From assembly GCA_021234155.1 (NCBI GenBank), contig JAJEKV010000025.1, positions 910,474-974,473 on the forward strand: a stretch of DNA of 64,000 bases. The letters run 5' to 3'. Origin of the DNA: Isoetes taiwanensis (lineage: Eukaryota > Streptophyta > Lycopodiopsida > Isoetales > Isoetaceae). Below, piece after piece: positions 24,601 to 62,729 of this stretch. The position numbers and the translations under genes were made by a program. Position 1 is the stretch's first letter. Each line of letters opens with the position of its first letter. The notes below the pieces were generated by a model that did no database searches, had not been told where the DNA came from, and worked only from the letters and a program-made list of their open reading frames with translations.

Positions 24601-27600
24601 TGAAGGGGTTGTAACATTAGATGGCATAGTGGAGCCAATTCTCCAACATCCACTTGTGTTAAAAAGCTTAAAATCACATTCCTGTGAATGACTTTGGTTG
24701 ACTGAAAAAAAAGAAGAACGAATTATTTCAGTATAATACGAGGTTGTAACAACCGTGACTCTTATTGAATAGCAAAATAGCCTCCACAATGCGTTTGACC
24801 TTTGCTATACCCAAAAATGTAAGAACAAAATCCTGTGGTAGTTCCTTATAGGCTGGCTGTTAATAGAAAAACAGGAGTAAAAATTCAAATTGCTTGAGAA
24901 CTAATTTTCCTGATTCAGAGTGCTTTTAAACTACTTGCTCGCGAGAAACACAATGTAACAACTAGCCTGGCCAGCTTGCAGACAGTTAAGAGACTTCTAT
25001 CTTCTCTAAGTAGACACTACTGGTCTTCACAAGGAGCAATTGTATCACTTGTTGACAAATTCTACATACCTTGCCACATAATTTGGAGCTTCCTTTCCTC
25101 AGCTTCGGGTAAAGAATTTTCACTATAAGTGATATCAAATTTGTTCTGTGTGCGTCTGCGATCTGCTGACTGTCCCTTCCAATTTTCCACGTAGTGATCT
25201 CTTCCCGCAAAGTTTTTGAAGAAAACAAGTTCCTCAAATGATCCTCATAAGATAGAATAAAGTCATCTCTCCAATTCAATAAAATGTCAAATACATGTTC
25301 CTGTATTGTTGCATCTTCGTCCATTAAAAACCTAGCATTATATGTGTAACAATTGTCAGAGCGAACAACAGCAGTAGGCTTATCTTGCATAACAGACACA
25401 TCATTATGTTCCACTTCAGGCACATCTCATGAATCTCGCATACCTATTTTATTAACTTTACCTTTTTAGATACCATTAAATTCCTCTTTAGAAAAGAATT
25501 CATATCCATACGAGAAAAGGATGTTACCTATTTGACAAAATGTCTTTGATAACTGGGGATTTAGGTAGCAAAGATATATTTTTCAGCTTTTTAAGCAAAA
25601 TAAGCCACTCTTTCAAAACATTTCTCCACTTTTTACCCCCATTCTTGGCATTATCGCTGCTGCATTGAACCAAAAAAGTCAACTATTACCTACATAATTG
25701 CCCACAATATTAACTATAAGAATGCAACTTACTTTCCATGTCCATCTTCACTATGGCCAACAAACCGGAGAAAAAGAGGTATTATCTGTTGAGATCTAGA
25801 TTCCACAGCACTTGGAGCCTTCTGCATTGTGCGAAGCAGTAAGCACAATAAAGTAGCAGTATCAGTTGCATCCTCTTGAACATTGAAAACGGACTCCCAG
25901 AGAGTCCACAAATCTACAATGAAGAACTAGAAATCAGAGGAGATTATGAACTGAAAATCAGAAGTTATTGGGTGATCATAATCATAATAATAAATAACTA
26001 GCTAACCTCTGGCACAAAGAAGATAGTGCAATATAAGGGACCAGAAAAACCATATGGTCAACAAATGCACTACCAAAAGCTTTTATGGTTCGGTGATTAT
26101 TTGTTGGTAAAGTATTTTCCTGTCAATGGCCCTTATTGATTTCGCAAATGCATGGTATGCTATGATTTTATTTTTGTGCTGTCGTCTGGCACAAAGAAGG
26201 TAGTGCAATATACGGGACTAGCAAAACCATAGTGTCAACAAATGCACTACAAAAGCTTTTACTGTTTGGTAGTTGTTCGTCAGTAATGTATTTTCCAGGC
26301 GAGGGCCAGTGATTTTAGTTTTGTGCTCAAATATTCTTCATCCAGTCAGACTTAGCTTGATTTTACTTTTGCGTATATGGCCACTCGCTCAAGGGGTGCA
26401 CAGTTGGGACATTTGTTAACAGATTTCAAAAATAACACAAATCGCGTAATCTAATTCTAACACAAAGGGGTTCATTATGAAGGATATAATGAGTAAAGTA
26501 AGTAATGTTTGTGTAAAGGTTAAAAGCTGGTAATATTTGGTCATTGGGACAAGTGGCACTAGAGTTAATATGTTACCATATATAGGTGACGTTTTCTATG
26601 TTTTCTAGTCGGTCATGCATAACTAATTACGAGATTCTGGTTTTTGCCTTCTCTCCTTGTTTCTCCTAGTTGATTAAATCCATCACATTATCCTATTGCA
26701 TAAAAGCACAATGACAAATGGGAGTAACTTAAGCCATGCAGCAGAAGATGCACTGGAACTAAACATGTCATCCTTTGCCTCTACCGCAGTTCGATACAAT
26801 AAAAATAGATAACAACAAAAGAATTACCTTCGGGATGAAAGTCATCATGCTGCAAGTTGTCTTCCTTCTTATGCCCTAAATCCCCAGCATAAAACAATTC
26901 CTGGCTTTCTGATAAATAATCCAGAAAGATATTCCAGGTAGCATTGCCATGTTCCTCAATCAAGCATGCTAAGCAATCAATTGCCACGTCCCAAACAGGG
27001 GCAAACCGGTTCTGAATAATGCCTAACATGGCATGCAAAAGGGGCACAATGAAGCTTGATGAAATTTTTTTCGATTGCAAAGCAATCTTTATTCCCGATA
27101 TTAAATTACATGTTTGCCTGCTCCCATCTAGGTAAAACGGTGCCGTCTCAATGGAAAGCAAATCTTTAAACAGCTGAAAATGTACAGAAACGCACATCAA
27201 GTGAGCAACCAAGCTTAACAAAACATGTAAGGAACATTGGGAAACATAAGCACCTCATGATATTGCGGTTGACTTGTGCTACATACTTTACCATCATTTC
27301 CCTTCATTCTTTTTGATGGCCCGCTATTTACATCTAGATAAGATGTTTCAAACAAAGCGAAAATCCGTAACGTCTGAAGCCTTAGTTGTTTGTTGCGCTT
27401 TCCAAGATTGATTTGCAACTTTTGTGGCACTTCTAAGTGTGTATCAAGCCTCAAATCCACATTTTCCCTAAGCCATAAAGCAGCAACGTTTTTTTCTAAG
27501 TCATCAACTAAAAGTAATACGAACCAATAGAGACATCTAAGATTTCCTACTATATTAGGTAGCCTTAGTTATAAAGAAATACTTCAGACATATTTGACCA

Positions 27601-30600
27601 TTATAGAATGCCTTAGATCTAAAATGGGGTACATTTTCTCCTACCTGCTTGCTTTTCCCCTATAAGGTTCCACAATTTGACAATGTTTGTGTGCATATAT
27701 TTATGTATAGATAAGGATAAAGGAAGGTACCCTATCATACCAAGATTTATATACATTTCAATGAATAAAATATATGGGTCATTAAAGCCCTGTTTTTAAG
27801 CACCAACTCACCTTAAAGCATCATCCAAAAAATCTGCAGCCGCCTTAAGAACGTAAAAGCAATCACTGTGACGACAAGCAAGCATTAAAATTCTGCTTGC
27901 CGTCGCTTCTGGATGAGGTTTCTTTATTCTCTTCACTACATCCAACTGTGACAGAAGAGCCGAGCCTAACAAGCATTTCAAGCATAAACGCTATCTGCAC
28001 CTAGACATTCAAAAAATCCTTCCCCAATAAACACTTTTGCCAATTTTAAGAAAGTTCAAGAAGACTAAATCTTTTACCTTCGTCTTCGTCTAAAATGTTG
28101 TCAACGGCAAAAGCAAAATCCCATGGAAGAGAGAAAAGTTTTGGTTCAATTGTAACGACATAAGGAATACACTGCAGAGCAACCCATAAAACAGCCGGTT
28201 TGGTAGACAAAACTTGAAGAACCTGTTTTATGCTCTCGCGTATTTGGAAAACATGATTTTTCAGCCTTTGCACAAGCAAACCAGCAATGACCTCCACAAA
28301 TATGGAGCTTTCACAGCCTTCATCTTTAAGGAGACATGAGAATTTTTCTCCAGTTATCTCGAGCTTTTCAAAGAAATTTAGGAGCAATAGCAGTACTCCT
28401 GATGGCTCCAGAATAATAAAATGCTGAAAGGCGCTGTCACATTCGAACGACATACTTAGCAAGCAGAAGTTTTGCAACAATATACCTCGTATTATTCTCA
28501 GTTATGCTAAACCCTCATAACCACAGGGTACATGCACATAGGTAACACAAAAAGAAAAGTCATAACGACTTACCTAGTCAAGTAAGATGCAAATGGTTGG
28601 ATTAAACTCATTTCCTGCTCCAGCAGTCCTTTTATAAAAGGAAGTAAGCTGATAGTCATAAATGCAACAAGTAAGACACTCATTGAAGCAAAAGTGATTC
28701 TTTACAAATCCAACAACAAATACCAGTTGGCTTGAGGGCACTTAAACGCAATGCGCCATGAGGCAGCAACCCCAGCTATTACTGGCGGCCCTCTGCTTGC
28801 ACCTCCTACTTTCGAGTGATTTCTCACAAGATTAAGCAGAAAACGAAATGTTTCTGATACCACTGTTGGTTTACTGCTGAAAGAGTGAGACAATGTAAGA
28901 GGGCCAGAAGATTCCTCAGTTGATTGGATGTCCTCAAGCAATATCTTATTGCAAACAAGCCTCTCAACTAAATCGAACAATGGTGTATAATCTGTGAATA
29001 TTGTTGCCATTGTCACCCAAAATCACAATAAACAATGGCGAAACAGCCATACCAGTAGACCAAGACATACCTTTTACACGGTTTCCTCTCTTATATGCTA
29101 AAATAGTATTCAGCAAAGATAGCAAAGAAACAAGATGCCTATGTCCCTGAGTGTCATCCAGAATGGTACCCCTCTCATTGTGAGATACTATTTCCTCTAA
29201 TAAACATGTCCAGAGAAGCCCAAGCTTCTCACGCTTGAAATTCTCACATAGCAGATGGAGAGTCTTTTGCAATACATCCAAAACAACAGAATTTCCTGTT
29301 CAACCAAATCACATATTAGATGAATATGAAATATCAATTTCGCAAACATTACTGTCCTGGACAGTCTTGACGTCATATTTAAACATACCTGCATCTTTCT
29401 TTCTACAAAGAACATCCTTAGAAAGGAGGAGACGCAGTATTGCTTCAGCACGGGAATGAAATGTTGTTGATGAACCTTTAACAGAATGGTAAAGAAGCAG
29501 ACTACCACTAGAAATGGCATTCTCTGACTCATCTATATCAATCTCCAACAAAACTTTCTTCAAGCCTGATCACCCAGACAATTATAAGCCAACTGTAAAA
29601 AGAATGTTATACTTTCCAAGTCATAAGCTAGCTAGGAAGCATCTGAAACTAGCCCAGAGCTAACCGTCCAATTTGCATCGCACAACAGCCAAATGAAGTT
29701 CCTAGATATTCACTGTATATTCCGTAAGTGTAACAGCCTTTTGCAAAAGCATGATATTATAATGTAGTTTTTAGCAAATGCATGGTATTATAATGTTGCA
29801 GTTGTGAGCAAATACTGCAAGTCATTAGTATGCATGTCATGATACACGCTTTTTTTAAAAGAAGGCATTAAGCTATACTTACAAATCTAGTTTCCTGTTA
29901 TAAAGATCCCTTTATGTTCCCCTTACATAATGGTTGAACTTATAAAAAAATCTTGCCAATTAAATTAAATAATCCGCATCTTACATTGTAGTGCAAATAG
30001 CGATTGGTTACAGGACTTGGAGAAATTTAGTTATGTCCCACTATATCTTGCACGTTGTTTTGCATGATAGTGGAAACGGGAAAAAGAAACCTATTTTCTG
30101 GTTCCAAGTAGGCCATCCATATGTCAACAGCGCAACATATTTTTGAACGTTGGATACATTAAGGTTTATATGAACCTATAGCATACAAAACTGGTTTTAA
30201 TTCTATCTTGCTCCAGATTTATACAGCTGCTAATCGTATGGTACCTACCTATGTTTCTCTGTTTCTTGGGTGCATTACGCAACAGAAAGGATAGTGCCTC
30301 TGCAGAGAATTCCTGTACATAAGGCTGACCATAGCATCGCAATCTTCTTGTAATCCTAAATAAGTACATTTTCAGTCAAGAATAAAGGCAGCCAGATCTC
30401 GACAAAACAGAAAACGGCATGGCATACCTTAACACAAGCTCAATATCTTCAATAAGAATTTTTCGCAAATACTTGAATACCAATGAAATTGATGTGAACA
30501 CCTATAAACATGCACAGCATCCAGTTTCATAATCAAAGGCTCCAAAATATAAGCACAGATCTTTAGTAGCACAACCTGCTCTAAAACATCAGGTTCTCTA

Positions 30601-31727
30601 TCGCCACCAGATTGAAGAAGGTTCAAACATGAATCCATAAACCGCGGCAAAAATCTGTTTCTACAAGGGGTTAATTCATTATCCAGTTCTGTTATCTACC
30701 ATCCAAGTAATACTTACACAAGATAATCTTCTTGCAAATCCCTTGCCAAGCTTGAGAGTAAGCTATAGTATGAAGCCAAGCATAAGTGTCAGTGAGATTG
30801 TCTCAATCAATTTGGTCCAAATTAACAGCGTTACAAATGGCAACTCAAAAAGCATCCAAACATTGGTACGAGCTTCACAGCACAAGCTTAATATCAATAA
30901 TCTTTAGGTTTTCTTGTATGGGGACAAGCCGTTTATGTGAAGGAAAAAAGTACAGCAGTTCGGTTTTCATAATCAGTCCTATTTTATTCGCAACACCACA
31001 CATGTAAAAGTGAGCATCCCGTATAAAATTGGGACATTCTGTGTGCACAATGGCCACTCAGAGTTCTACTACTCTGGCCTAGGACCACATCGGCAAAACA
31101 AATTTAATCATAATCATTACAACGTTGTTAAACCAGTAAAGTGTAATCAATATTAAAACACTTAACAGAAATTACACAAATTCAAAAAAAATAAAAAAAC
31201 CTTGTTGGATAATAGACACACCTTAGTATTGGTTCCAAGGATAGTAGTGAATTGAAACATAAACAGGAGAGTAAACGGTCAAAAATTCTCTCCTTATGCA
31301 GCAACAGTTGAGGCAATGTCTGAACAAGTGGTAAGACCTCTTCGTACAAGTTAACAAAATCCACTGCAGCATTTAATTCCTGAAATATTGTTGAAATAAT
31401 AAGAGATATTAAATTAGTCCCATTGTTGTGGATGACAACATGCAGCTATTCCTTTATTTTTCACGAATACATACCCTCCATTGGAGGAGGTTCTCGTGAA
31501 AGAAAGAAGATCCTTGTGTTGGATTGGTTTTGACAGGATCAAGACTACGAAAAACGTCGATATCCACATCCTCTACACGCTCCCAGAAGGTTTTAAACTA
31601 ATTCATATTTCATCGGGTCAGAAATGGTAGCATATGTGCATTGTATCAGATGCTTGAGAGAATTTACCACAAAACGCTTATTTCCAGGCCCTTTGTTGAG
31701 GCACTTCACAGGCCGCGCCGGAGCCAT
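18494..31727 (-). CDS. UTP20: UTP20-like protein, small-subunit processome component 20 (spliced, ~30 exons)
   Basis: UTP20 is a nucleolar HEAT-repeat scaffold of the U3 snoRNP/SSU processome, required for 18S rRNA maturation. The start codon at 31,727 opens MAPARPVKCLNK; the first exon joins in frame at 31,668/31,597. Exons read (approximate; main ones checked at GT-AG junctions): 31668-31727, 31475-31597, 31222-31379, 30718-30762, two or three in 30427-30660, 30248-30358, 29388-29571, 29071-29296, 28722-28985, 28574-28650, 28071-28466, 27812-27950, 27251-27469, 26827-27175, 25732-25914, 25547-25665, 25069-25332, ~24767-24858, 23626-24701, ~23117-23250, 22862-23071, 22379-22783, 22170-22295, 22016-22081, 20183-21909, 19839-20118, 19543-19761, 19013-19465, 18798-18927, 18494-18732. 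Summed coding length is about 2,700-2,800 codons, matching the family. Recognisable parts are the N-terminal segment, the DRIM-type region (exon 23626-24701), the 'VHRRARAM'-like motif (here VHRRAKAMSRF, 22016-22081), and a C-terminal block ending in a very basic tail (RLGAKRQEQKKRKRMKIG). No in-frame break was seen in the exons checked, so it looks functional. Confidence 0.93.
26008..26307. repeat. Direct repeat inside a UTP20 intron
   Basis: Two ~125-bp copies at 26,008-26,132 and 26,185-26,307, both starting TCTGGCACAAAGAAG and sharing ACAAATGCACTAC and AAAAGCTTTTA. They lie in the largest intron (about 25,915-26,826). They may be remnants of a small transposable element; no clear ends were seen. 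Confidence 0.75.
26530..26685 (+). repeat. Dispersed repeat copy A (intron of UTP20)
   Basis: A ~155-bp segment repeated in the same orientation at 47,104-47,250, sharing GGACAAGTGGCACTAGAGTT, TCGGTCATGCATAACTAAT and CTCCTAGTTGATTAAATCC. Copy A has a ~10-bp internal extension near 26,600. Probably a fragment of a mobile element of unknown class. Confidence 0.85.
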
Positions 31728-32404
31728 AGCTTCGGTCCGCAGGCTTCAAAATTGCTAGACCCTTCCTAAACCCTTGTACACGTAGTAGGCTTACGTTGGC
31801 ACAATTCGTTTTTGGGGGCCCAAGGGCAAAACCTAGGAAGGGTTGTGAGGGCCCTAGAATATTTGCAGAATATTATGTGCTAGGGAACCGATGCTTTGAG
31901 GGTTTCCGCCAGGAAACTGGTAGTGGCGCCGCGAAGAAACCCCGAAAAGCAGGCGGCTCCTAGCCATTATCCCCTGCCATCATGAAATTCTGTTCACCCA
32001 TTTTTTTTCCTCTCTTGAGTTTGGCGATGGCGGAGGTCCAAAGTTAGAACTCTAGCAATCTTCGCTTGGGTCAAGGCTTTGGGCGTCAGTTTTTTTCCAT
32101 AGGTTTTTGCTATGATTTGTCGACTTTTTTTGTCATTCTCTGAGTTTCTAACTATCTTTTCTTGTTTCTAAATCCTTCATTTCCTTAAGAAATTCGGCGA
32201 TTTTCGTGTAGGTGAAGGCACTGGATCCGAGGCTTGTTATTGAGGTTAAGATTCTTGTTGTTGAGGTTTCTGGCAATTTTTCTTTTAGTTCTGAATTTCT
32301 GACCATTTTTCTTTGTTTATAGGTTTTGCTGTCGTCTTTTAATCCGTTGGCATTCCTTCGGTCGCTTGTTCTGAAGTAAATCAATCGGACTGTCCAGCCT
32401 CTTA
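31728..32404. other. UTP20 upstream region
   Basis: Presumed promoter and 5' untranslated region of UTP20, which is transcribed to the left. It ends at the left terminus of the CACTA element. No convincing TATA box or other motif was picked out, and no second gene is recognised. Confidence 0.5.
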
Positions 32405-33630
32405 CACTATAATATAATAGGGTGTTTTTTGTCGGGTATAGCGTCAAACAAAGTGATGCTATGCGTGTTTTCAAAGGATTGTTAAATGATACGATAATGA
32501 CGCTAAAAGTGTTATACTTTGATGTCGCATGGACGTCAAGTATTGCGTCACGGCTACATAACGTAAAAATGACATAATGACTACATTTGTGGCAATTGCA
32601 TAGCATGTTTGTGTCGCGCTTGTATCCAAGTTATTCAATAATTGTGTCATATTTTATATCATATTAGTTTCAACGCAATGACTGCATTTGTGGCAATTGC
32701 ATGCCATGCTTGTGTCGAGCTTATAACTAAGTTATTTAATAATTGTGTCCTACTTTCTATCATATTAGTCTTAACACAATGACTACATTTGTAGCAATTG
32801 CGTGGCACGTTAATGTCAAAACTTATATCTAAGTTTGTCAATAACTTATATTAGTCTCGATTATGCAACTAAATTGTTACACCCTATTGGCAACTGTAGC
32901 TTGCATAGGTTGACATCCTTTGCATCATATTTACAACTCTTATTACATGTTGTATATCTTTTTGTTATGCAAATTATAACGAGCCTATTTTATTTTTACA
33001 ATATGATTGTGACTTTTAGTTATATAGTTATGACAAACTAGTTTCCTTTTTGTAATAGTTGAGTAACAAAACTGTGTCAATATTTAAGTCTTTTTGTGAC
33101 ATATGCATATCAATTTTATAAGCACGTATGAGACTATTGTCAAATTTGTGTCCATTATACCTTTAATTTATGCCCATTTGTGGCAATTCTACCTTTAATT
33201 TTTGTCATTTTTATCTCTTCACCAATAGATTTTTATTTTTGGAACAATTTTGTATTTGAGATGTTTTTTCTTGTATTCATGCCAAATTGGTTTCATTTCA
33301 GTCTATAGTTGCATCATGCACAATGTACAAAGGAAGAAAAATTGAAAACCAAGTAACTGCAGTGATGATAAGAAGATAAATCGTGATCAAAATACTTGAC
33401 AAAATAAGGAACATTAAGTTCAAATGGAAGACCATTTTACATTTAGAGTACTTCTAACATTTGTCAAAATAAATCCAATAGTTTTAAATTTGAAACACTT
33501 TCGATCATGTATTATTTTCATTCCAGATTATCATCCTTGGTAGGAGACGGACCTTTTTGCGTTCTTCATCTTCGGTAACCTTTAAAAAAAGAGAGAGAAG
33601 AACTTGGTCGATTCTCAAATTATGCATCGA

Positions 33631-33931
33631 TTTCAAACAAGTTATATACCTCCTCTATATTTTTGGATTTAACACGGATTCCAAGTAAGCTGCTTAAAAT
33701 CACAAGATCAATAAAGTCATACTTAATGATTAGATTATGGACGAGTCTTCCATGACTTATAGAAAGGCCAATATTACTGCATGTAGCAAGGGAGTATTTC
33801 AATCAAGTTATATCCTCTATATTTTTGGATTTAACACGGATTCCAAGTAAGCTGCTTAAAATCACAGTATCAGTAAGGCTACATTTAATGATTAGATTAT
33901 GGACAAGTCTCCCACGACTTATGCGACAGTC
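33631..33931 (-). pseudogene. Captured PPR-like gene fragment, tandemly duplicated, inside the CACTA element
   Basis: Two direct copies (33,631-33,770 and 33,797-33,931, period ~167 bp) encode, on the minus strand, peptides with 'GRLVHNLIIK', 'VILSSLLGIRVKSKNIE' and (first copy) 'EVYNLFEI'. This pattern matches a plant PLS-class pentatricopeptide repeat segment (G..vH..iik......v...Ll.my.k...ie.a..lF). Only about one and a half motifs per copy are left and there is no full gene. It lies antisense to the transposase remnants, as expected for a host fragment picked up by the transposon. Confidence 0.6.
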
Positions 33932-34019
33932 TCCAGGAGACCAGTTCCCAATTAATTCCTTTAATTATTTCAGGTGCCATATGAGATTGAGTACCTATAT
34001 TTGTAGTTGACGCATCATT

Positions 34020-34811
34020 AGTGTTAAACTGAACCTCTGATCCAAGATGTGCTTTGAACAAACACCGTGACCAATGATTGGTTATTAGCTCATATGAAGC
34101 AAGAGATAGTGGACAAGTTGTTTTGGATGGTGATTACGAGATTGCGATTGGATGCAATAAAAAGGTATGGGATGAAAGTATTCCTTTAGTTTCATGAAAA
34201 GTTCATCAATATATCATTGCTTTTGGAGTTAAGAATTGGAAAATATAATAGAAAACTTGATTTTACTAGTTATACTTTTGTTGTTTAGACACAATTTCAT
34301 ACATCTATGTGGGCTTATGGATAACACTTTCGTATTAGTAATGTTGATAAACATAGAGTTACTTTTGACTCTGGAATCATGGCACATTTTAAACAAAAAT
34401 TCAAGCTAGCAGTAGGGATCGTAACCTTATTGATGGTGAACTATTATGTTGGAACTATATCCAATATCATTGAGTTAAACTATCGAACATTTTATGTAAA
34501 TGTCTTGAAAGAAAAGTAGTTCAAAGTTGTTTATAAAGGTCATGGAAGAACAATAAAAACACATGCCTCTGGATAAAAAGCCATTTGTTTTTCCAAATCA
34601 AGTTGAGCAAGTCTTCTTTCATCCAGATTCTGATAATAATGATTGGTAGATCGTTATACATTCTCAACCTAGATCACGTCGTGTGATTGAAATTCCTGAC
34701 CTGAAGACAAGATTGAGCCACCATCTGATGATGAAGATCGGCAATCAGAGCATATAGCAGAGGACTTTGGAAAATTGACGTATCATGCTTTGAACTCTTG
34801 AAGGCAATATT
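34020..34811 (+). pseudogene. CACTA transposase remnant with DUF4216 domain
   Basis: Reading through several frames gives ordered matches to the C-terminal part of plant CACTA transposases: 'VTFDSGIMAHFK', then a 'YVGTISNIIELNYRTF' segment, then 'PNQVEQVFFHPDSDNND', then 'SQPRSRRVIEI'. These correspond to the DUF4216 hallmark order (YyG.i..i.ElnY..f, then Q..QVfYv.D....W.vV). Stops and frameshifts separate the pieces. The frame that reaches the right end of this segment resumes at 43,997 after the nested element. The catalytic TNP2/Transposase_21 region was not seen. Confidence 0.7.
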
Positions 34812-34899
34812 ACACTACCACCCCAATTCTGGGTCCACACCTAAAAACAACAGTAATAAAAAGACCACATGTCATTGTTCCAAAAAATCTACATGTGGT

Positions 34900-36425
34900 T
34901 ATATGGAGGTGTGGTTTATTAAGGAGGCGGTGTAGTTTTTTTTACGGAGCTATAGTTTTTTTTTTTTTAAGGTGTGTCTTTTTTTGAGGTGTCGTTTTTT
35001 ATTTAAAAGAGGTGTTGCTTTTTTTTAGGGGGGTGTTGTTTTTAAGAAGGCGTTGTTTTTTGAGGTGTAGTTTATAATTAGGTGTAGTTCTTAAGTAGTT
35101 GTTTTTTATGGAAGTATAGTTTTTTGAAGTGCGGTTTATAAGGAGGTATAGTTTTTAAGTGGTTGTTTTTTTAGGAAGTATAGTTTTTTGAAGTGGTGTG
35201 ATTTTTTTAAGGGAAAATTGTAAAATTGCCCCTGTATTTTCCTCTAAATGTAAAAATGCCCCCATATTTAGCGTAATTGTCAGAATACCCCTTTTGTGCT
35301 TTTCACGACAGTTCCTATCTTCTCTTCTCCCTTTTATATTCTATTCTCTCCTCTTCTCGATTATATGCAGACTCTTCGTCTGGTCTGCCGGATCAATCAC
35401 CTGCAACTCGAGTTCCTTTGGTCTGCCGGATCAATCACCTGCAATCAGCTGCAAGTCGAAGTCTGCAAATAGCTAAGGTTTTTTCTCAAATCAGCTGCAA
35501 ATAGCTAAGGTTTTTTCTCAAATCAACGCACTACCGCTTTGCTTTAGTCAGCTCGCAGACTTGCCGCTTCTGCGCTGACCCACACTACTTGGCATGGACC
35601 ATTTCTATGCTAAGGACATCAACAGAGCCGATTCGGTTCTATTCGGCCTCCGCAATGCAGATTTTTCCTTCAAAAATTTGAATCCATCATATGTTACAAA
35701 GTGATTTCTTTCTAGAATTCCTCAGAGGTGTTGGGCGATCTTTTTGCGTCCAATTCTTCGTCCCCAAGGTCGGATCTTCTCCCCAAGCGTGATCACGCAA
35801 AAAGCCCCATCAAATTTGCCTCTATTTGGGCTGAATCATGGATTTTTCCCCAAAACCTGTAAAGAACAGGGGCAAAACATGTGTACGGCATAAAAGTACA
35901 AGAATTAAGGGCATTTTGATAAATATATAAAATACAAGGGTATTTTCACAATTATAGAAAAATATAGGGGCATTTTTACAATTTACCCTTTTTTTAATTG
36001 AGGTGTTGTTTTTTGAGGTGTGGTTTATAAGTGGGTGTAGTTTTTAAATAGTTGAGTATGGTTTTTTGAAGTGTCGTTTATAAGCGGGTGTAGTTTTTAA
36101 GTGGTTGTTTTTTAATGAAGTATGGTTTTCTGAAGTGGTGTAGTTTATAACTAGGTGTAGTTTTTAAGAAGTTATTTTTAAGGAAGTATGATTTTTTTAG
36201 GTGTGGTTTATATAACTAGGTGTAGTTTTTGAGTAGTTGTTTTCTAAAGTAAATATAGTTTTTTTAGGTGTGGTTTTTAAGTAGGTGTAGTTTTTAAGTG
36301 GCTGTTTTTTAAAGAAGTGTGGTTTTTTGAAGTGGTGTGGTTTATAACTAGGTATAGTTTTTACGCAACTATTTCTTAAGAAAGTATGGTTTTTTTGAGG
36401 TTTTCTTGAGGCTATTTCTTAAGCA
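34900..36425 (+). repeat. Left subterminal repeat array of the nested CACTA (interrupted)
   Basis: Degenerate T/G-rich units such as GGTGTAGTTTTTAAGTGG and GAAGTGTGGTTTTTTG. The Mutator-like element (35,211-35,988) interrupts them. They are the complement of the right-hand array. Confidence 0.85.
35211..35988. mobile_element. Mutator-like element (possible Pack-MULE), 778 bp
   Basis: Terminal inverted repeats of ~60 bp: the left starts GGGAAAATTGTAAAATTGCC, the right (reverse complement) starts GGGTAAATTGTAAAAATGCC. The flanking 9-bp duplication TTTTTTTAA is perfect (35,202-35,210 and 35,989-35,997), the length typical of Mutator insertions. There is no MURA transposase. The interior is non-TIR sequence with two short internal direct duplications (CTGCCGGATCAATCACCTGC, and a ~28-bp unit around 35,466-35,524). 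Gene capture is possible but no parent protein is recognised. Confidence 0.88.
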
Positions 36426-36514
36426 AAGCACCACCACCTGGAATATTCTTTGTGTGCTCAATTTTGGAAATGTATCGTACTGTTTTACATTCATGAAAAA
36501 TACCTTCAACGGTT

Positions 36515-37810
36515 AGATCCAAGGTGTCTCAAACATGCCACATAGGCTCCAACATACTACCTAGGCTCCACCATGCCAAGGTGGCTCAAGCATGCCATCT
36601 AGGCACCAACATGCCACCTAGGCTCAAACATGCCACGCGGGCTCCAACATGCAACCTAGGCTCCAACATGCCAATGTGCCTCAAACATGCTAGGCTTCAA
36701 CATGACACCTAGGCTCAAACATGCCAAGGTGGCTCAAACATGCCATGTGGGCTTCGTGCCACCTAGGCTCCAACATATCAAGGTGGCTCAAACATGCCAC
36801 CTAGGCTCCAACCTGCCAAGGTGGCTCAAGCATGCCGCCTAGGCACCAACATGCCACCAAGGCTCAAACATGCCAAGGTGTCTCAAACATGCCACGCTGG
36901 CTCCAACATGCCAAGGTGTCTCAAACATGCCACCTAGGCTCAAACATGCCAAGGTGTCTCAAACATGCCGCCACGCTGACTCCAAAGATGCCAAGGTGGC
37001 TCAAACATGCCCACGCAGCTACATGCCACCTAAGCTCCAACATTCGAAGGTGGCTCAAACATGCCACGTGGGCTCCAACATGCCACCTAGGCTTAAACAT
37101 GCCAAGGTGGCACAAACATGCCACATGGGCTCCAACATTACCTAGGCTCCAACATGCCAAGGTGGCTCAAACATGCCAAAGTGGTTCAAACATGCCATGT
37201 GGGCTCCAACATGCCACCTAGGATCCAGCATGCCAAGGTTGCCCAAACATGCCAAGGTGTCTCAAACATGCCACGCCAAAGCACCAACATGCCACATGGG
37301 CTCCAACATGCCAAGTTGTCTCAAACATGTCACTAGGCTCCAACATGTCACCTAGGATCCAACATGCCAAGGTGGCTCAAACATGCCATGTGGACCTAGG
37401 CTCCAACATGCCAAGGTGGCTCAAACATGCCAACTAGGCTCCAACATGTCACCTAGGCTCAAACATGCCAAGGTGGCTCAAAAATTCCACGCCGGCTCCA
37501 ACATGCCACCTAGGCTCCAACATGCCAAGGTGGCTCAAACACGCCGTGGGCTCCAACATAACACCTAGGCTCAAACATGCCACATGGGCTCCAACATGCC
37601 ACCTAGGGCTCCAACATGCCAATGTGCCTCAAACATGCCACCTAGGCTCCAACATGCCAAGGTGGCTCAAACATGCCATGTGGGCTCCAACGTGCCACCT
37701 TTGCTCCAACCTGTCAAGGTGTCTCAAGCATGTCGACTAGGCACCAACATGCCACCAAAGCTCAAACATGCCAAGGTGGCTCAAACACGCCACATGGGCT
37801 CCAACATGCC
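36515..37810. repeat. 19-bp minisatellite array
   Basis: Alternating 19-bp units such as CAACATGCCACCTAGGCTC, AAACATGCCAAGGTGGCTC and ACATGCCACGTGGGCTCCA. The 11-bp cores (GCCACCTAGGC, GCCAAGGTGGC, GCCACGTGGGC) are each nearly their own reverse complement or that of a neighbour. Long open frames across the array are a by-product of a 19-bp period that lacks stop codons. Confidence 0.95.
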
Positions 37811-39032
37811 ACTTCTCAGGTGTGTTAGTTCATATACATGCTTTGATATGGATATGGTGTGTTAGAACCTCCAGGTTGTTTAAGGAAACCAATTTTTGTC
37901 CAAAATTATGCAAAAAGTCATCAATTACATTAGGATTCCTAAAGCAAAATGAGATAGTTGCACTCAGATCTGAATATCTCGAGTTCTGTTGATCTTGTTC
38001 AAATGATTTTTGAAGAAGCAACCAGCGAAATGTTGTGGTGAGATGTAGAAAAAAATTTGGCTCAATTTGGATCTGGGATGTATGTGAAAATCAGGTTCAA
38101 AATTGGAAGAAAATTTGGCCAGTGCACTTCCCTGAGATAAAACAAGGCCTGCACACCCAAATGATGATATCTCGAGTTTTACTGAAAACTTTTGCATGGT
38201 TTTTTAAATGACTATTAGAGAAAAGTTATAGGAATATGTGGCAAAAAACTTAGCCTGATTTAAAACTGGGATGATGAAGAAAAATGAGACCAAATTGGAT
38301 CCAAAATTCTGTCAGTGAACTGTCGCAGAAAACCAGCAGGTAGATTTTTGGATCTCAAGCTTGATAAGGTTTTTTTGCATGATTTCAACTAACACAGGTC
38401 TGAATAGGGCCTAATATCATGTGCAAAAGGTAAATTATAGTTCGGATCGCAAGAAGTATCTCTGTAGCATGTTGTTATGAGAAGTATCTCTGTTATTACA
38501 GAAGTGCAGTGGTCAAAATTTCTTCCAACTTTGAACCAGATTTCTCAGACATCCCAGATCCAAATTAAGCCTAATTTTTTCCCACATCTCATTAGTCTAG
38601 TGGTAACACACTAGGTCTAGCAACTATAGGTCTCGAGTTCGAGACTGCCCAGAATCGCACTATGAACTGTTGGGTGTCAAAACCCACAGACGCAATGTAA
38701 AGTGGTTGGGGGCAGGGCCCAACCAAGCAATGTAGTGTGGTGTGTGGTCACATGTCCAGTTGGATGCTGCCTAGTGGCGTGACGTTAAAATACTATCTAT
38801 CTATCACATTTTTTCTCTAGTTGCTCCTCTAAAAATCATTTGAATAAAGACCAGCACAACTCGAGATATTCAGATCTAAGTGCAAGTACCTCGTTTTGCT
38901 TTAGGGATCCTAATGTAATTGATGCCTTTTTGCATAATTTTGGACAAAGATTAGTTGCCTTAACCAACTTGGCGGTTCTAACACATCATACCCATATCAA
39001 AGCATGCCTACGAACTAACTCACCTAAGAAGT
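37811..39032. mobile_element. Foldback element with ~300-bp inverted arms
   Basis: The left arm (37,811 to about 38,130) and the right arm (about 38,500-39,032, reverse complement) match over their lengths. Shared stretches include TTTGTCCAAAATTATGCAAA and CATCAATTACATTAGGAT near the ends, and AATTTGGATCTGGGATGT further in. The right arm is longer because a SINE-like sequence sits in it. The termini read ACTTCTCAGGTG and its near complement CACCTAAGAAGT. No matching target duplication was found, so the exact ends are uncertain. A MULE-type or other long-TIR non-autonomous element is likely; no coding capacity. Confidence 0.8.
38593..38806 (+). mobile_element. tRNA-derived SINE inserted in the foldback element
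   Basis: The 5' part carries internal RNA polymerase III promoter boxes: an A box TAGTCTAGTGG (38,593-38,603) and a B box GTTCGAGAC (38,637-38,645), spaced as in a tRNA-like head. The body is unrelated to the foldback arm and the 3' end is a short TATCTATCTATC-type tail. The segment is absent from the opposite arm, which shows it is an insertion. Clean target duplications were not identified. Confidence 0.75.
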
Positions 39033-39580
39033 ATCAACTTATATACGCTTATCCCAAAATGATTCAGTGAGCATGGGAGAGGAAGACAAGCCATATGATC
39101 ATATTTTACAGAATACATTAGAATTTAGACTCGGTCAATAATTCCAACTCCTTTGAGTGCTTCTATTGATCAAGACAATATGTATACAATTAGCTCTTGA
39201 TTTCTAATTGCCACAGTGGGAGAAAAATAGATCCAAACCCATGTCCGTCAGTTACTTATGTTTCGCGTCTTCAACTGCAACTTCTCGACCATGTCCCAAG
39301 TGTAAGCGACCATGCTATAATGTAAACACTTCAATAACCTAACAACACACATGGTTTATATTTGGAGGCCATATCCTAGTCAGGTTTGACCAGGATCTTG
39401 CACAATGTCATCACGTAGAGGGAGGGTATTGAAACCAGAAGATAGACCCTTAAAACCTTCCGGAAGCAGCTTGACCAAAGGTCCTCTCCTGAAGGCCCCT
39501 ACCCACGGACGAGCAACCATCCCACTCCGTAACTGTGAACTAGCTCTGCCAAGGGACTCAAATGTCGTGCCCTTAGGATC
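39033..39580. other. Unrecognised segment inside the nested CACTA
   Basis: Separates the foldback element from the second minisatellite block. Short open frames occur on both strands from about 39,380 but match nothing recognisable. Confidence 0.5.
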
Positions 39581-39972
39581 CATCATGCCACCTAGTTGGC
39601 TCCAACATGCCATGCGGGCTCTAACATGCCATGCGGGCTCCAACATGCCAAGGTGGCTCAAACATGCCACGTGGGCTCCACCATGTCACCTAGGCTCCAA
39701 CATGCCCTCTAGGCTCCAACATGCCACGTGGGCTCCAACATGCCACCTAGGCTCCAAGATGCCAAGGTGGCTCAAACATGCCACCTGAGCTTTGAAATGC
39801 CAAACAGGCACCAATGTGCCACCTAGACTCCAACATGCCAAGGTGGCTCAAGCATGCCACATGGGCTCCAACATGCCACGTAGGCTCAAACGTGCCAAGG
39901 TGGCTCAAACATGCCAAGATGGCTCAAACACACCACCTAGGCATCAACGTGCCAAGGTGGCTCCAACATTAC
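39580..39972. repeat. Second block of the 19-bp minisatellite
   Basis: Same unit types as 36,515-37,810 (for example CATGCCAAGGTGGCTC and CATGCCACGTGGGCTCC). It was probably one array with the first block before other sequence entered. Confidence 0.92.
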
Positions 39973-42900
39973 AATTCAAGCATTAATGGCCTAAAATGCC
40001 ATTTCAAATGGAATATATTTTTTAGTGGATAACTCAGTGCACCATCTCTAAGCATGCATATAGAGCCATGGCAAAACATAGAGTTTGAATCCATCGGCCA
40101 TCCAGAATGAACCCAAACAATATCTTGCTACTAGGACATGAAGGGTCTACGTTTTGGAGGTTGAGTTTAGGTCGTTTGCACTTGGGACCTTGACTAGCTT
40201 GGTCTTAGATTGAATAAATTTCCTGGCTGTCACGAAGACGATCTCCTAGATGCTGCTTCTTGGGGCGCGTGTAGGGCAGCTATGGCAGGAAAGAAGCCGC
40301 CCTTCTTTCTTTTCTCCGGCACTGCTGCTGCACAAACATGTCTTCGATTCATGAACCAAAGTCTTTGTTTGTCTTTCACAACTCCTTATCCTAGCTTTCT
40401 TTGTACTACGTCTTTCTATATAACTCTTAAGAGTCTGGATAAGCACATGGCAGTGTTGGTGAATTTCTTGCATCTGTAGTGAGTTTGTGATTCCATGATC
40501 TTTTATGAAATGGAGATCATAATATCAGACGTTCCCTGTTTAGCCTTTTGATGTGGAAATTTTATTATATTTCGGACGTTTCGCAAAAGACTGTAGATAA
40601 CTATGACAACTTGATGCTTAGATGAGCTTTTATGGAGGCATAATTTCTAGTTGTCAAGATCACTGTTTATAGATGTATATGTTGTCTAATTATTCTGCTC
40701 TCTTTGCAACCAGACCTCTACGCCAAATTGTCACTTTAATTACCATGATCATGTGGTGGAAGACGATTTCAAGAATATTGTTTGGTGTCAAGTATGCACA
40801 TATGAAACCTTTACAAATTTTGGTAGTGCTTATTATGGGCATGTAGGCAATAACATGGACTACAGTTCCTTTAACGAGACATCATGGTAGAATTTTCAAA
40901 AAGACTATTTGGTCTTCAGCGAAGTAATTGCAGTGTCCAGTTACTATGCCTAGGCTCGCAAATCAATCTGTGTTTGCACTTCACTGCAGCCAAGATATGC
41001 ACTTGGACAGGAAGGGTTAGCATTGGAGCGACCATGAATTTCAAAAGCTGGAACTGATGATAATTCTATCGGATGCCCTCTTTACGAATAAAAGACAGAA
41101 AACAATTATTAGTTGTACCCCCAATCACGCCAAAGGACTTCCCTTATTTTTGCCATATACTAGTATTTGAACACTTTTTGGATGTTTAACAAATTTCCAA
41201 AGGCCATACTTAAAAATATTTAATGCTTTTAGAGTGACGTGGGACCATAGGCCAACATTTATGGGCTAGAGAAAATTTGTAAAAGCATCTTAAAGACCAT
41301 GGCAAGTTGACTCCATTACTTGATTTTTGGCTAGAGCAACCATTGGTCAAACCTTGGGACCATTGTGGAGTGAGAAATTAAAGGCATGGTGGTATTCACA
41401 AGTCCATCCTTTTCAAAAAGCAAGAAAACCCAAAGGCTTAGAACCATGGTGGAGCAATAATGGTCGCTTAGCTGGAACAAAGGGCTTGAAGACCAAGGTG
41501 AAGGGTAAATAAAAGGAAAAGATCATAAAAGAAAAGATCACACGGGGGCAATAGGAAATGGTAATGCCATTTTTACAAATCCGTGGTACAAGAACTAGGT
41601 ACAAGAGTATTTGGACAAAGGCAATGGTGGTAAAATTTTAATAAAGGGCATGGGTGGAAATGTAAATATTGGGTAGGCAAAAATATTTAAACACTAAATA
41701 TAAGGCAAAAGAAGCACAATGAAGGTGAAAGAAAATGATTAAGCTAAAAAATATAAAGGCAGAGATGAGGGAGAGATGAAGGGCCAAGATTAAGATCTTG
41801 GGCCCTAACATTCTATTGGTTTATTTCAACGGCAGAGATGAGGCAGAGATGAAGGGCCAAGATCTTGATCTTGGTCGTGACATCCTATTAGTTTAGGTTA
41901 ATTTTTTTTTCCCCACGTCGATTTTGGCGCCTTGTTTCTTGGCGCCTTGCCCTGTTTCTTGCCGCTTTGCCTTGCTTGTTTTTTGGCGCTGTGCTATCTT
42001 GCATGCTCGTCTTGCAGTCTTGAGATTGAGATTGCAACTCTTCAAAGCAATGCAGTAGCGGAAATCTGAGCAGCGGAGCTGTGCCTAGCCTGGCCACCAA
42101 TGAATACATGGAGCTCAAGGGATTGGATTGCTAGCCAATCTAACAGACGAGGCACCTAAACTGGCGTCCACAGGAAAATGTCGGATTTGAAGCTGGCATA
42201 CACAGCGGTCGCTTCAAGATTTGTAGCTGTCGGATTCGTTGCACCTGCTAAAACACAGTTTCAGATATGCATATTGCTATGCTACCGGATTTGTTGCCGA
42301 AGATGTGTCGGCTTGTGACAGATAGTGCATTTGGCGTCTGTATAATCCTTTGTTTCCTAATCTACAGGGCAGAGACAAGATTTGCTAGAAATACAGTTTT
42401 GAATCTATTTACCAGCATATGCTGGTCGGCCTGTTCAAGACCATAATAGGCTCTGCATCGATTTATGATGGATTGCTTGTACCATGCCTGTGCCACTTGC
42501 CTGTACTCTAAACTGCTCGAAATCCATAAGCTAACATTTCAGCAGGAGAAATATAGGTCAAATAATCTTGGCCTACATACAGGTTTGGGTTGATTTCCCT
42601 TGAACATCTACATTTTTGCTTGGAAATGGTAGTTGGAATTGTGTTTTAACTAAAACTTGGTTGTCTAGGGATGCCCAAATGTGTTTTTTGCCTGCAAACA
42701 GCTTATGCAAATTATACCATAACAGATGTGTGTTGGGCTAATATTCCGCGGGGCCAGATCTATTACTATGGAAGTGCCCTCTAATGATGTTGGATAACAC
42801 GGAGATGCTTTTGTATATCATGGTATGATGCTATCTTTTCTTATTCATTTATTTAAAGCTGGAAGCATGAGAGGTGTCTGGGTTCTGTTGTCTATTAGAA

Positions 42901-43255
42901 CCCTATCTGCATTAGAAAGTTACAGATAAATATGGTGTAGTTCAAGTCTTGCATATGGTTTTCAATATGGTGCGAATCTTGCATACACTTGACACTATTC
43001 TTTTATAATTCTTTGGCAGGTTTGACAAAGTTTATAGCTAGAATACAGCATAGACAAAGATCTGCTCCGGCAAAATATTCTAACTGGTCTGCTCTGGCTA
43101 AATACGCTTCTGCCAGTTATGGTTTGCTCCGGAAAGAGTACATTACAAGCAGCTAGTTTTGCAACCTCCAAGGATGTCAAAATCCCATGAATTGAATAGG
43201 CAGATAGAGTAAGGATATGAAAATCATGTTTTTAGTAATTGGAAACAGGATTTTT
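39973..43255. other. Internal filler of the nested CACTA, no gene recognised
   Basis: About 3.3 kb without a convincing gene. It contains a local duplication around 41,755-41,870 (two copies of GCAGAGATGAGG followed by GAGATGAAGGGCCAAGAT) and a GGCGCCTTG-type short repeat near 41,930-41,990. Captured host sequence is possible but unproven. Confidence 0.5.
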
Positions 43256-43980
43256 GAATCAACTTCTTATACTTGAAATACAAAATTGCAAAACTTGCTC
43301 TCATCTATCAAAAGTAGTAAACATCAACAATTTCTTGAAAAACAGCAATTGATTGTAATCAAAAACAATACTTGAAAAACTTGTCATTTAACCATGTTGT
43401 TTATTGAAGAAAACAACACTTAAAAATATTTATTTGACATGTTGTTTATTGAAAATTCTATAAAACCACATGTGCATTTTATGTAAAATAATACTAAAAG
43501 ACAACACCTATTTTTGAAAAAATACATTGCTTCTCAAAACCACATATCATTTTTTGAAGGACCAACACTTGAAAACAACATAATCAAAAGAAAAATAAAA
43601 AAACTACGCATAGTTTTTAGCAAAGTCGGACAAAATCCTATACATGGTTTTTTAGTGTTGCTTTTTGGCAAAACAACAGTTAAAAACAACATGTGGACCT
43701 TTTAAGTTTTATTACAAATCACATGTCTAATTTTGAAGAAAGCAACGCTTGAAAACTACAGCTACTTTTAAAACAACCTGTAGAAATATACGTTAATTCC
43801 TACGTGTAGATAATTTTGACAAAACTCTATGCGTAGACTTTTGGCAACAAAAACTACATATATAAAAATTTTGCTAAAAACTACACGTCATTTCTAGCAA
43901 ATTCGGACAAAAAACAACACGTAGTTTTTTGGTGTTGTTTTTTTGCAAAAAAGACACTGAAAAACAACATGTGGACCCAG
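43256..43980 (-). repeat. Right subterminal repeat array of the nested CACTA
   Basis: A/C-rich degenerate units (AAAACAACACTTGAAAAAC, AAAACTACACGT and similar) that are the complement of the left array. Oppositely oriented subterminal arrays are a standard feature of CACTA ends. Confidence 0.8.
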
Positions 43981-43996
43981 TTTTGGGGTGGTAGTG

Positions 43997-44303
43997 TTAC
44001 ACATGGCATAATGAAGGCACAAATGATGCGTTACCTCAACCATCAGATGTGAATGATGACATCAATGAAGGAGATACTGATTCCATTATTTTATCTCCAA
44101 CAATGATCTCTCATCCACGAAATGAGGTTGGAAGTAGTGAACAACTATGTGATGATAGCATTAGTGATGACTATATTGAAGATGAAGAAGTTCCAAGCAT
44201 TGATTCACGTTTTAATTTGCATACAAATTTGCGCTTGCATTTGGATGATGATGACTTAGACGACATTGAGCACAATATTCAAGACCAATTCAATGCTTTA
44301 TAA
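43997..44303 (+). pseudogene. Acidic C-terminal tail of the outer CACTA transposase
   Basis: An open frame with a strongly acidic, Asp/Glu-rich composition (for example DDDDLDDIEHNIQDQF) that ends at a stop near 44,301. Read upstream, the frame stays open to the TTA at 43,997. It continues in the same phase into the sequence left of the nested element, apart from a TGA six codons before the TAC that spans the junction. This supports a single transposase exon split by the nested insertion. Confidence 0.65.
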
Positions 44304-45645
44304 CCATTTATGTTGCCATCGATCCGAGCCATCGGATCGGAATTCTCGAATGGGCAAGCATGCATCTCTCCTATGCATGCATGCATTGCAAGCATTTTCT
44401 GAGGCTCTGGTTCGTTTGGGGATCGTTATTTCTTGCAGGTTCTTCATCGACTCTCATCGGCGTTTTCTCCTCTCTCAGCAGCTCCGTTGACTGCCACCCG
44501 CCCTCCCTTCATGTGTATATTATTATAAATATTGTTTTTTGTCGCGTGGCACGCGTGACCAGCCCCTCGCTTTTCGAGGTATTTTCTCTATTGGTTTTTT
44601 GTTGGTGATGTGCAGGTTCAAGGGTGATGCGCGACTTCAGTATTCTCTATGGAGCGTGGGTTTTTTTTTGTGGGAACGTTTAGCAGCCTGGCATTGTCCA
44701 AGCCCCTTGCCGAGATTTTATTGTTTTCCTCGAAAACCCAAAAGGGCGGGGTTTTTTAATCCCGGCGATAAACTTTCGGCAGGTACACTAGCCAACATCT
44801 GTAGCACACAATTTTATTTGGGGTCCATGTGTTATAACTGGATATTCCCTATGTTTTTCATTTTTGGGTAGCCTGTGATGTGCATCTACCCACTCTATAC
44901 CATTGTAGAAAAACTGCTGAGATGAATGAAAAGCCTAGATGAATATTATATAAACGTTTGCTCTAAATTGCTTTTCTTGCACTTTTGATTAACTATATAA
45001 GGACTAAGAACATACATGCCTATACACATGACATATTGGATATAATGTTTATTCCATACTTCTAATGTAATTCTTATGGTTAGCATATTATCATTAAAAA
45101 CCATGCCAGTTACTGAATACTATAAAATGTTTATTTGCAAGATTGTTTTCGTCATACTAGCTAGTGGCACTTTTGTGTCAAACTTAGCGCTTTTTGCGTC
45201 AAGATATCTATGTATTTCTACTTCACAATGTCACTACAGTAATACTTTTTTGACGCAATCACAAGACATAAGTACCACAATATATAATAGAGAATTGACA
45301 TAAATTAACCGATATGTTTGATACTATTAAAATGACACAAACGCTTCACAAAACGTGACAACAACCTATCACAAAATATGGCAGAAACGCGTAACAAAAT
45401 TGACCCAAAACTTTAGAACTAGCAAAGTTATAGTGGACACAAATCTATTGCTATATTTGACTCAAGAAATGTCACAATTTTTTCACAATACATGATGTAA
45501 TAATTATTACAAATGCTAATGAAAAAGTAATAAATTTTTGACTTTCGAATTAATTTATATCACTTTCAAACTTCTGACACAAATGTGTCAAAACTTAAAG
45601 CGTAGTGACACAGGATTTGACGCAAAAACCTATTCTCTTGTAGTG
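44304..45645. other. Right non-coding and subterminal part of the outer CACTA
   Basis: The left half shows no recognised gene. From about 45,130 the sequence is AT-rich with repeated GTCAAA/TGACGCAA-type motifs that mirror those at the left end (about 32,440-32,830). Confidence 0.6.
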
Positions 45646-47103
45646 TCACTTTGTTCTTTCTGCTTGATCTTTGCGATCTTTGGCAAGATTTTTGAGCAAG
45701 GTTTTAGATGTCTTTAATGGTCTTTATGGTATTAATTTGCTCTATTATTATAGTAAACTATTGAGCACAATCCTCTGTAAAGAATGAGCTGTTGGTTATA
45801 GATTTGTACAGTTAAAGGAATCTGAAGAAGGAAGAGCTTATTTTCGTTTCATAGACTAGTATACAAGGAAGACGTGGTCCGAACTACAACTTCGTCTCAT
45901 TTTCCTTCCTTTTTTGCGAAGAGGGGAGCTTCTGGCGAGCCTGGCTATGTCAGATTTGAGTTGGATCAGAGAAAGGCTCAGGCAAAATGCTCTGTTTGAA
46001 CCAATTCTTTTACGTATGTGGTGGCGGTGATCTAAGCGGTGCCACCAGTAAACTTCATCCCAAAATTACCTAAAAGAAATAAATAGGGAAAACTCCAGAA
46101 ATTTCCTGGTGGCAGGGGTTTACGAATAAACAGTGTAGATTGGGAGACGAACTGGAATATCTACAAAATATGTTGAATGGGCGTATGGAAATAAGAGCAA
46201 AAAAAACAGATGATGTTTTTGCATTATCTTCTATATCGAGTTGCATCGAATATCCTCCAAAGTAGCACACTGCATGGATGTCGAGCGGATCCAAAAAAAT
46301 CCCCCTTTCTAATTGTTTATTTCAGGGTTCCGGTTTCGGATTTGCCTTCAACAGATTATGCATCTTAAAGAACATAACAAATTGGAGCTTGCATCAGATT
46401 GAAGCTGGGTTTTTCTTCTATCTACTTTTTTGTCCTTTCATGTAGGTTGAAGCTTGCCTCGATTTTCATCAAATTGAATAATAAATTGTTCGCAGCCATG
46501 GACTCCTACTTTTTTCCTCCCATCTGTTTTTTCCCCTTCCGTGTGACCAACCAATCGTGTAAAACCACCTTGTTAATGCTTTTACGGGATATAAAAGTAA
46601 AGGTGAAGGAATAAGATTTTTAATTAAGTATTTGAAACTGTATAAAGTTGATAATGGCATTGAGGTTCAGACTGAAGTTTTTGACATGTTAGTATGTATT
46701 TTTTGGATATCAAAAGGGCAAGCCCTTGCTGGATGGGCTCAAAGAAAATTGATTTGTTGGATGTACCAATTGGACAGTTTAAGTGCGCAGACCACTCAGC
46801 ATTACGTGACGCGAGCGGATGGTTTCTTTCTAATTAAGTGAAATGATCCATCATTCGCCATGTCGGGGGTTCCTTAGGGACTGATTCACTCTGCATAGAT
46901 TGACTTAATGTAGAAAACTTGGAACTTTTGGCGATCGTTTTTTCCACATGATTTCTCGTTACTCGTGTCAGCATTTCCACTTTTGTGGCCTTCGGTCAGA
47001 CTATCAGACGATAAGCCCCAAGAAACATCAAGCATCTTCCAGGAGATCCGTGGAACGATCTTGATATAAGGAACACTAGGGGTAACGTTAGACGTCCCTA
47101 GGG

Positions 47104-57244: not shown

Positions 57245-57735
57245 CTAATTGATGACATTAAGATCCCCTTTGAACAGATTGAATTTGTTTTCTGCAAGAG
57301 CTTTAGTAAAAATGTCAGCAGTCTGTTTGGCTCTCATTTGGATATATTTTTTGTCTGCTAGATCTCTGATAAAATGAATGTTGAGCTCTATATGTTTAGT
57401 TCTTTTGTGCTCAACTGGATTCTTGACTATGGCAATGCAACTTTGACTGTCTGTCATAATTTCAATGGCTTCAAGTTGTAAACAATTTAACTCCTCCAAT
57501 AATCTTCTCAACCAGGTGATCTCCTTGGCTACTAAGGAAGCTGCTACATACTCAGCTTCAGCTGAACTCATTGCTATAGCTGATTGTTTTTTACACTTCC
57601 AATTTATAACTCCACCACCTAAAAATATTGCATAGCCAGAAGTTGATTTCCTACATTCTAAATCCCCACCCCAGTCTACATCACTATATACCAGTAATTT
57701 TAGATTGTCAGTAGAATAACAAATCCCATGGTTTT
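57245..57735 (-). pseudogene. Copia pol, RNase H segment
   Basis: Open frame with the Copia-type RNase H signatures: 'YSDVDWGGDLECRKSTSGY', 'SSAEAEY' and 'DSQSCIAIVKNP'. It ends with a stop at 57,245, next to the polypurine tract. The LINE insertion at 57,736-58,060 cuts it off from the upstream reverse transcriptase; the first residues of the open frame belong to that insertion. Confidence 0.9.
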
Positions 57736-58740: not shown

Positions 58741-58744
58741 TTTC

Positions 58745-59565: not shown

Positions 59566-59574
59566 ACCAATCTC

Positions 59575-62709: not shown

Positions 62710-62716
62710 AACTGTA

Positions 62717-62728: not shown

Positions 62729-62729
62729 C

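Follow-up and report, generated by a model that had tools for sequence, protein, structure and literature searches.

A CACTA element without recognised transposase and with ends of differing history, nested in an older CACTA remnant of Isoetes taiwanensis

We analysed a 64,000-nucleotide stretch of the Isoetes taiwanensis genome (assembly GCA_021234155.1, contig JAJEKV010000025.1, positions 910,474 to 974,473 of the forward strand), referred to here as the window. A non-autonomous element of the CACTA (En/Spm) superfamily, 9184 bp long and located at 34813–43996 on the plus strand (the inner element), was found inserted in an older CACTA element (the outer element), within the remnant of its dead tnp2-type gene. 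The inner element shares a transposase-free core with several other copies, its two ends have different histories, and it would have been mobilised in trans and may have acquired its ends as a hybrid. We estimate the probability of this account as a whole at about 0.93. The nested insertion is now documented with an empty site, and the surrounding family is a large natural one, whose left-end and right-end histories offer a test of the proposal that Pack-CACTA elements originate as hybrids between neighbours. The results also bear on the CACTA elements of a seed-free plant.

Results

The inner element was flanked by TTA at 34810–34812 and, as read in the window, at 43997–43999. The two flanks were joined across the element with one TTA kept, and this sequence was searched against the assembly (1,658,258,908 bases in 1110 contigs). 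The search returned 48 rows, two of which were the window itself, and the joint was crossed unbroken in 37 of the other 46; six of these joint-crossing loci were inspected base by base. The best empty site was found on contig C1055 (L019, 93%) and reads GGCAATATTACACATGG, with TTA present once, which is the window sequence after removal of the inner element and one TTA. The same outer element occupied the same position there, with no inner element and no footprint. The C1055 sequence matched the window at 97% over 28000–32400 and at 94% over 32105–33105, and on the right side at 94% over 44496–45430 and 90% over 45545–46400. Because the similarity to the window extends past the outer element to the left and to the right, this sequence is more than a further copy of the outer element: the segment as a whole has been duplicated (or a second haplotype has remained uncollapsed). 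The inner element inserted with duplication of TTA, and the duplicate segment lacks it. The perfect target site duplication (TSD) reported in an earlier note on this DNA was thereby confirmed, and the empty site that the note had suggested seeking in a related accession was available, clean and with a single TTA, within one assembly. The possibility raised there that the TTA match was coincidental was not borne out, the flanks being continuous without the inner element at other loci.

The outer element spans 32405–45645, including the inner one. That one CACTA element lies within another, as the earlier note had claimed, was confirmed by the sequence on either side of the insertion, which matched C-terminal parts of a tnp2-type gene in tblastn searches. 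On the plus strand, the upstream part of this remnant was matched at 34040–34768, in pieces and in different frames, and the downstream part at 43997–44300; the downstream match began at 43938, and its first part, which still belongs to the inner element, was taken as over-extension. Pfam gave only a sub-threshold TRCF match for two outer flank pieces, and the same pieces were recognised by tblastn with related tnp2-type fragments. Because the outer right terminus, used as a search pattern, matched only four places in the genome, itself included, the outer limits rest on DNA similarity to other copies. Similarity started at 32399–32408 in 34 of the 38 other copies scored, and three copies ended at 45643–45653. 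In the window, the left copy of the outer TSD reads TTA and the right copy TCA; the change from T to C is probably later, because C1055 has TTA on both sides.

The termini of the inner element start with CACTA and form inverted repeats. The left terminal inverted repeat (TIR), CACTACCACCCCAATTCTGGGTCCACA (27 bp, 34813–34839, plus strand), is paired with a right TIR that reads CACTACCACCCCAAAACTGGGTCCACA inward (27 bp, 43970–43996, minus strand). These termini gave the best-matched inverted repeat between the ends (28 nt, 93%), of which 27 nt belong to the element and the remaining one to the neighbouring TSD, and the same end bases were found in other copies. The earlier note had placed the start at 34812, one base too early, while its end at 43996 was correct. 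Four weaker inverted pairs (26–30 nt, 73–80%) join the two subterminal regions. The oppositely oriented subterminal arrays that had also been described were evident as a strand bias of the motif GTDGTTTT, which was selected after inspection of the sequence. This motif occurred 15 times at the left end versus once on the opposite strand, and 13 times versus twice at the right end in inward reading, and base shuffles averaged 0.98 and 0.13, respectively. The left array of such motifs extends over 34840–36420 on the plus strand (inner limit approximate) and is interrupted by a later insertion treated below. The inverted CACTA termini, the 3-bp TSD with its empty site, and the repeats facing inward at both ends (by a motif chosen post hoc) are features of the CACTA (En/Spm) superfamily.

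The genome search for the 27-bp termini that had been recommended was carried out with up to two mismatches. It yielded 792 matches (385 forward and 407 reverse), and the reversed pattern used as a control yielded none. Among the first 100 places, the terminus forms AATTC and AAAAC were found at opposite ends of close pairs. The copies ended at the same bases, so the alternative that the true ends lie elsewhere was not upheld. Perfect 3-bp TSDs flanked 12 of the 14 other paired members that were fetched first. These 14 were picked as visible close pairs of ends, and their lengths, 2.8–13.3 kb, are therefore not a random sample of sizes; within this family, the 9.2 kb that had been considered remarkable for a non-autonomous element is not unusual. 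These results show that several hundred copies make up the family of the inner element.

Three sister copies, L027, L028, and L029 (8.04, 7.99, and 7.70 kb), had nearly the whole core of the inner element in common with it at 87–96% identity, and a fourth, L030, was a shorter relative of 4.75 kb. Intact TSDs were present in two of the four, L028 and L029, each with its own. Compared with the three longer sisters, the inner element carries about 1 kb extra in two places. The first is a MULE-like (Mutator-like) insertion at 35211–35988 with 82-bp inverted ends at 77%, bracketed by the 9-bp repeats TTTTTTTAA at 35202–35210 and 35989–35997. A TSD of 9–11 bp together with inverted ends is characteristic of MULE-like elements, and the site is empty in L027–L029; the exact length of the duplication is uncertain in this T-rich repeat. 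The second is a SINE-like (short interspersed nuclear element) insertion of about 214 bp at 38592–38805 on the plus strand, also missing in the three sisters. Pol III A and B boxes, a TSD, and tRNA similarity mark a tRNA-derived SINE; this insertion has an A-box-like motif at 38593 and a B-box-like motif at 38637, with no clear TSD and no Rfam match. Beyond these additions of about 1.0 kb, nearly all of the inner element was shown to be a multi-copy core that multiplied as such. The earlier proposal that the element grew by collecting other repeats thus holds for the two insertions but not for nearly all of the rest.

The earlier note had described the element as having no transposase, and none was recognised by tblastn. 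With TNP2 and the protein fragments of the outer element as queries, no TNP2-type match was found in 15 elements including the inner one, nor in eight further loci, nor in L035, L036, L039, and L040. The same queries matched the outer remnant and cross-matched separate TNP2 loci (L026 to L025, and both to L022). In a search with PF02992, 150 of 2312 candidates were scored and at least 167 matches were obtained; none of the places listed lay inside the 21 close TIR pairs noted, which are a fraction of the 792 termini. A missing TNP2-type transposase is what is expected of a non-autonomous CACTA element and is no bar to the assignment. The best Pfam matches of the inner element were all below the cut-off (Rep_1, E 0.004; Symplekin_C, E 0.05; PHD_4, E 0.07). 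In other members, seven open reading frames (ORFs) were chosen by eye from L001, L003, L006, and L010 and screened for gene fragments. L001 contained a fragment of the dynein motor domain AAA_6 (E 1.3e-30), L003 contained AMP-binding fragments (E 9.5e-8 and, below the cut-off, 5.5e-5), and L006 contained a PsbQ fragment (E 6e-8), while three ORFs (two of L001 and one of L010) had no Pfam match. The capture of a dynein fragment would, we presume, fit a plant with motile sperm. Judging from these matches, the family includes Pack-type elements, at least three of the 14 members fetched first carrying host gene fragments.

The ends of the family members were then compared with each other. Left-end and right-end identities were uncorrelated in an identity matrix of 15 elements (rho 0.05), and also with 16 elements after addition of the sisters (rho 0.07, permutation p 0.28). 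In approximately unbiased (AU) tree tests, the right-end data rejected the left-end clade of L002, L003, L004, L005, and L008 (p-AU 9e-8), and the left-end data rejected the grouping of this copy with its four sisters, L003, and L004 (p-AU 3e-38). Most inner branches were weak in both end trees of the 16 elements. The left end of this copy was 84% identical to that of L003. The right-end module of 615 bp (43382–43996, minus strand) was 98% identical to that of L003 and 97% to that of L004, and this similarity broke off sharply at 43382, the adjoining bodies being unrelated. Taken together, these comparisons show that the left and right ends of the inner element have different histories. A right end of 97–98% identity next to unrelated bodies is what would be expected of hybrid formation or end exchange, and the differing ancestry of left and right ends, with clades named post hoc, agrees with a hybrid origin of the Pack-CACTA kind.

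A 19-bp tandem array adjoins the left subterminal array. Its first block lies at 36519–37812 on the plus strand, with the same orientation as in other members, and a second block with this repeat pattern lies at 39584–39969, also on the plus strand. A 24-mer of the array had 8991 exact matches in the genome, and its reversed control had none. Among the first 100 places, which fell into 27 clusters, three clusters lay within 10 kb of an exact 12-mer of the family terminus. Eight other array clusters were picked by hand, L039 and L040 being excluded from the count because two of the reference ends came from them. A related CACTA left end was found within 2.4 kb and in the expected orientation at five of the eight (E 2e-25 or better), and none was found at the other three (no match at two, E 1.9 at one). 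As controls, the best of eight reversed searches gave E 0.15, and the best of 10 window segments (five places, both strands) gave E 6.5. Within the family, an octamer of the array was present in at least three copies in 15 of 19 elements and absent from the remaining four; its orientation was the same throughout, except for one reversed octamer in L017. Because the array recurs beside related CACTA left ends at five of eight loci, it looks like a component of long standing in a broader CACTA clan, which this copy would have inherited and not collected. The same finding weakened the idea of a satellite that this element had captured.

The remaining parts of the inner element were assigned by comparison with its relatives. 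An inverted-repeat segment at 37811–39032 (outer arms of 186 nt, 88%) lies between the two array blocks, and similar sequence also occurs in sister copies and other family members. The segment at 39895–40503 is missing from the three longer sisters and was considered as a third recent insertion. This was dropped: the segment starts inside the 19-bp array and is bordered by GTG on either side, so that loss from the sisters is a simpler and more likely explanation than a gain in this copy. The body at 40504–43380, with no recognised coding sequence, is common to the sister copies.

Discussion

The inner element is an ordinary kind of object and well supported as such; its modular ends and the shared, oriented array are of more interest. 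It resembles the dSpm type, the non-autonomous members of the CACTA/En-Spm superfamily, in its CACTA termini, 3-bp TSD, inward-facing subterminal repeats, and the lack of a transposase in our searches. It differs from that type in a body that is not recognisable as the leftover of an autonomous element, and in the oriented 19-bp array next to the left subterminal array. Mobilisation could have proceeded as follows. A TNP2-type transposase of some autonomous CACTA element would recognise the TIRs together with the subterminal arrays and move the inner element in trans by cut and paste. Reassorted ends would result if two elements were mobilised jointly, one supplying its left end and the other its right; alternatively, one end may have been replaced during repair. 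Such hybrids would take up whatever sits between the ends, which in some members would be host gene fragments.

Pack-CACTA hybrids have been proposed to arise from neighbouring insertions, according to two reports (PMC8903248, PMC13317346). On this proposal, the two ends of an element should differ in ancestry, as they do in our end trees. The present family is like Pack-CACTA elements in that no transposase was found and some members hold host gene fragments, and this copy is unlike them in that no gene fragment was recognised in it. No pair of parent elements lying next to each other came to light, no search aimed at one having been made. A CACTA element of Chenopodium quinoa is described as a 16.5-kb coding element with a captured satellite array of 171-bp monomers (PMC8978399). 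Both that element and the present one contain a tandem array, but here the units are 19 bp long, lie next to the left end, and occur also at five of eight other loci. Among the matches listed in literature searches, no dedicated study of CACTA elements in seed-free plants was present, and those on CACTA with Isoetes or lycophytes mostly had other meanings or were passing mentions.

Several observations weigh against the account given here. Four of 18 other members had no matching TSD. The clades used in the tree tests were named after the identity matrix had been inspected, and the end alignments are short (397 and 343 columns), with L007, L014, and L017 excluded for aberrant ends. L008 and L002 have a right module of 625 bp in common at 98%; this pair was considered as a case of end exchange and rejected, since L008 reads like an element of the L002 type with part of its interior deleted. 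Searches for an autonomous partner found none, and for this reason mobilisation in trans is only inferred; three longer pairs (13.5–18.3 kb), analysed as slices of 10, 10, and 9 kb, were likewise without TNP2. No host gene fragment was recognised in the inner element among 16 chosen ORFs searched with Pfam, and this copy is accordingly not filed as Pack-CACTA. The gene fragments of other members might also sit in elements nested inside those members.

The main rival concerns the origin of the mosaic ends, which could be due to exchange between the repetitive subterminal arrays, by gene conversion or by ectopic recombination, and not to joint mobilisation of the ends of neighbours. Arrays are natural substrates of recombination, and the breakpoint at 43382 falls within a 45-bp tandem repeat (43362–43453) that lies on the inner margin of the right subterminal array. 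Towards the body, however, the present copy is unrelated to L003 and L004 from this breakpoint on, so that an exchange would have had homology to only one side. We regard this route as a real contender, though on balance a doubtful one. It is unlikely that the inner element was once autonomous and decayed in this copy, through deletion and overwriting of its transposase genes, instead of having multiplied without them. Non-autonomous CACTA elements do descend somehow from autonomous ones, and related ends carry other internal blocks. However, the transposase-free core is common to several copies, L028 and L029 with TSDs of their own among them, and must have been lacking a transposase when it was copied; by tblastn, the core contained no recognisable remnant of TNP2. 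CACTA elements move by cut and paste, and the inner element could in principle predate the segment duplication and have been excised later from the C1055 copy. This is very improbable, as C1055 retains a clean single TTA with no footprint and the outer family has no interruption at this site in its more distant copies either. A chance match of TIR and TSD in a unit that is not mobile, for which a 3-bp match has a probability of 1 in 64, is refuted by the 792 termini, the TSDs of other members, the empty sites, and the sister copies.

Compared with these rivals, the nested, non-autonomous element with a multiplied transposase-free core and differing end histories accounts better for the evidence described above. 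Beyond this, we tentatively suggest, at somewhat less than even odds, a wider CACTA clan with variant termini (CACTACCACCCC, CACTACAACCCC, and CACACTCACCCC). In this clan, the 19-bp minisatellite of fixed orientation would be a second cis component, conserved for a long time and placed just inside the left subterminal region. Its non-autonomous members would be modular, with exchangeable end cassettes and arbitrary bodies, giving rise to hybrid Pack-type elements on the scale of a family.

Additional observations

The four sisters of the inner element, L027, L028, L029, and L030, start with CACAACCACCCC and not with CACTACCACCCC, that is, with CACAA in place of CACTA. Since two of the four carry perfect TSDs, the changed terminus may still be functional. 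Part of the body of the inner element, 768 bp long, recurs at L035 (C913:1449692-1450459, 96%), with sharp edges in unrelated sequence. Its closest relatives are this copy (95.7%) and L031 (96.3% over 489 bp). L035 was weighed as the donor of the body; in view of its sharp edges and its similar closeness to this copy and L031, the transfer may have gone either way. At L039 and L040, 19-bp arrays adjoin repeated units of about 0.8–1.1 kb and diverged CACTA left ends (CACACTCACCCC and CACTACAACCCC).

The duplicate of window 28000–46400 is located at C1055:10492585-10508778 (L019, L037, and L038). The outer element in this duplicate holds a CACTA element of a different family, about 6.9 kb long, with ends CACTACTACAAAAATAGG and the TSD ACC, located about 0.5 kb from the point equivalent to the site of the inner element. 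In the window, the outer element contains a high-copy repeat of about 630 bp at 44309–44939 (limits approximate), which is missing from five more distant copies of the outer family (L020–L024).

Elsewhere in the window, positions 1–16700 hold a tandem series of units of roughly 2.67 kb, about six as counted by eye, and each unit has 10-, 20-, and 31-bp sub-repeats of the AGATTCCC type. Open frames of a putative large gene occupy 18966–31700 on the minus strand, with the outer element on its 5' side; by eye this gene resembles RRP12. Finally, Ty1-copia-like ORFs, also recognised by eye, lie on the minus strand at 57245–62766.

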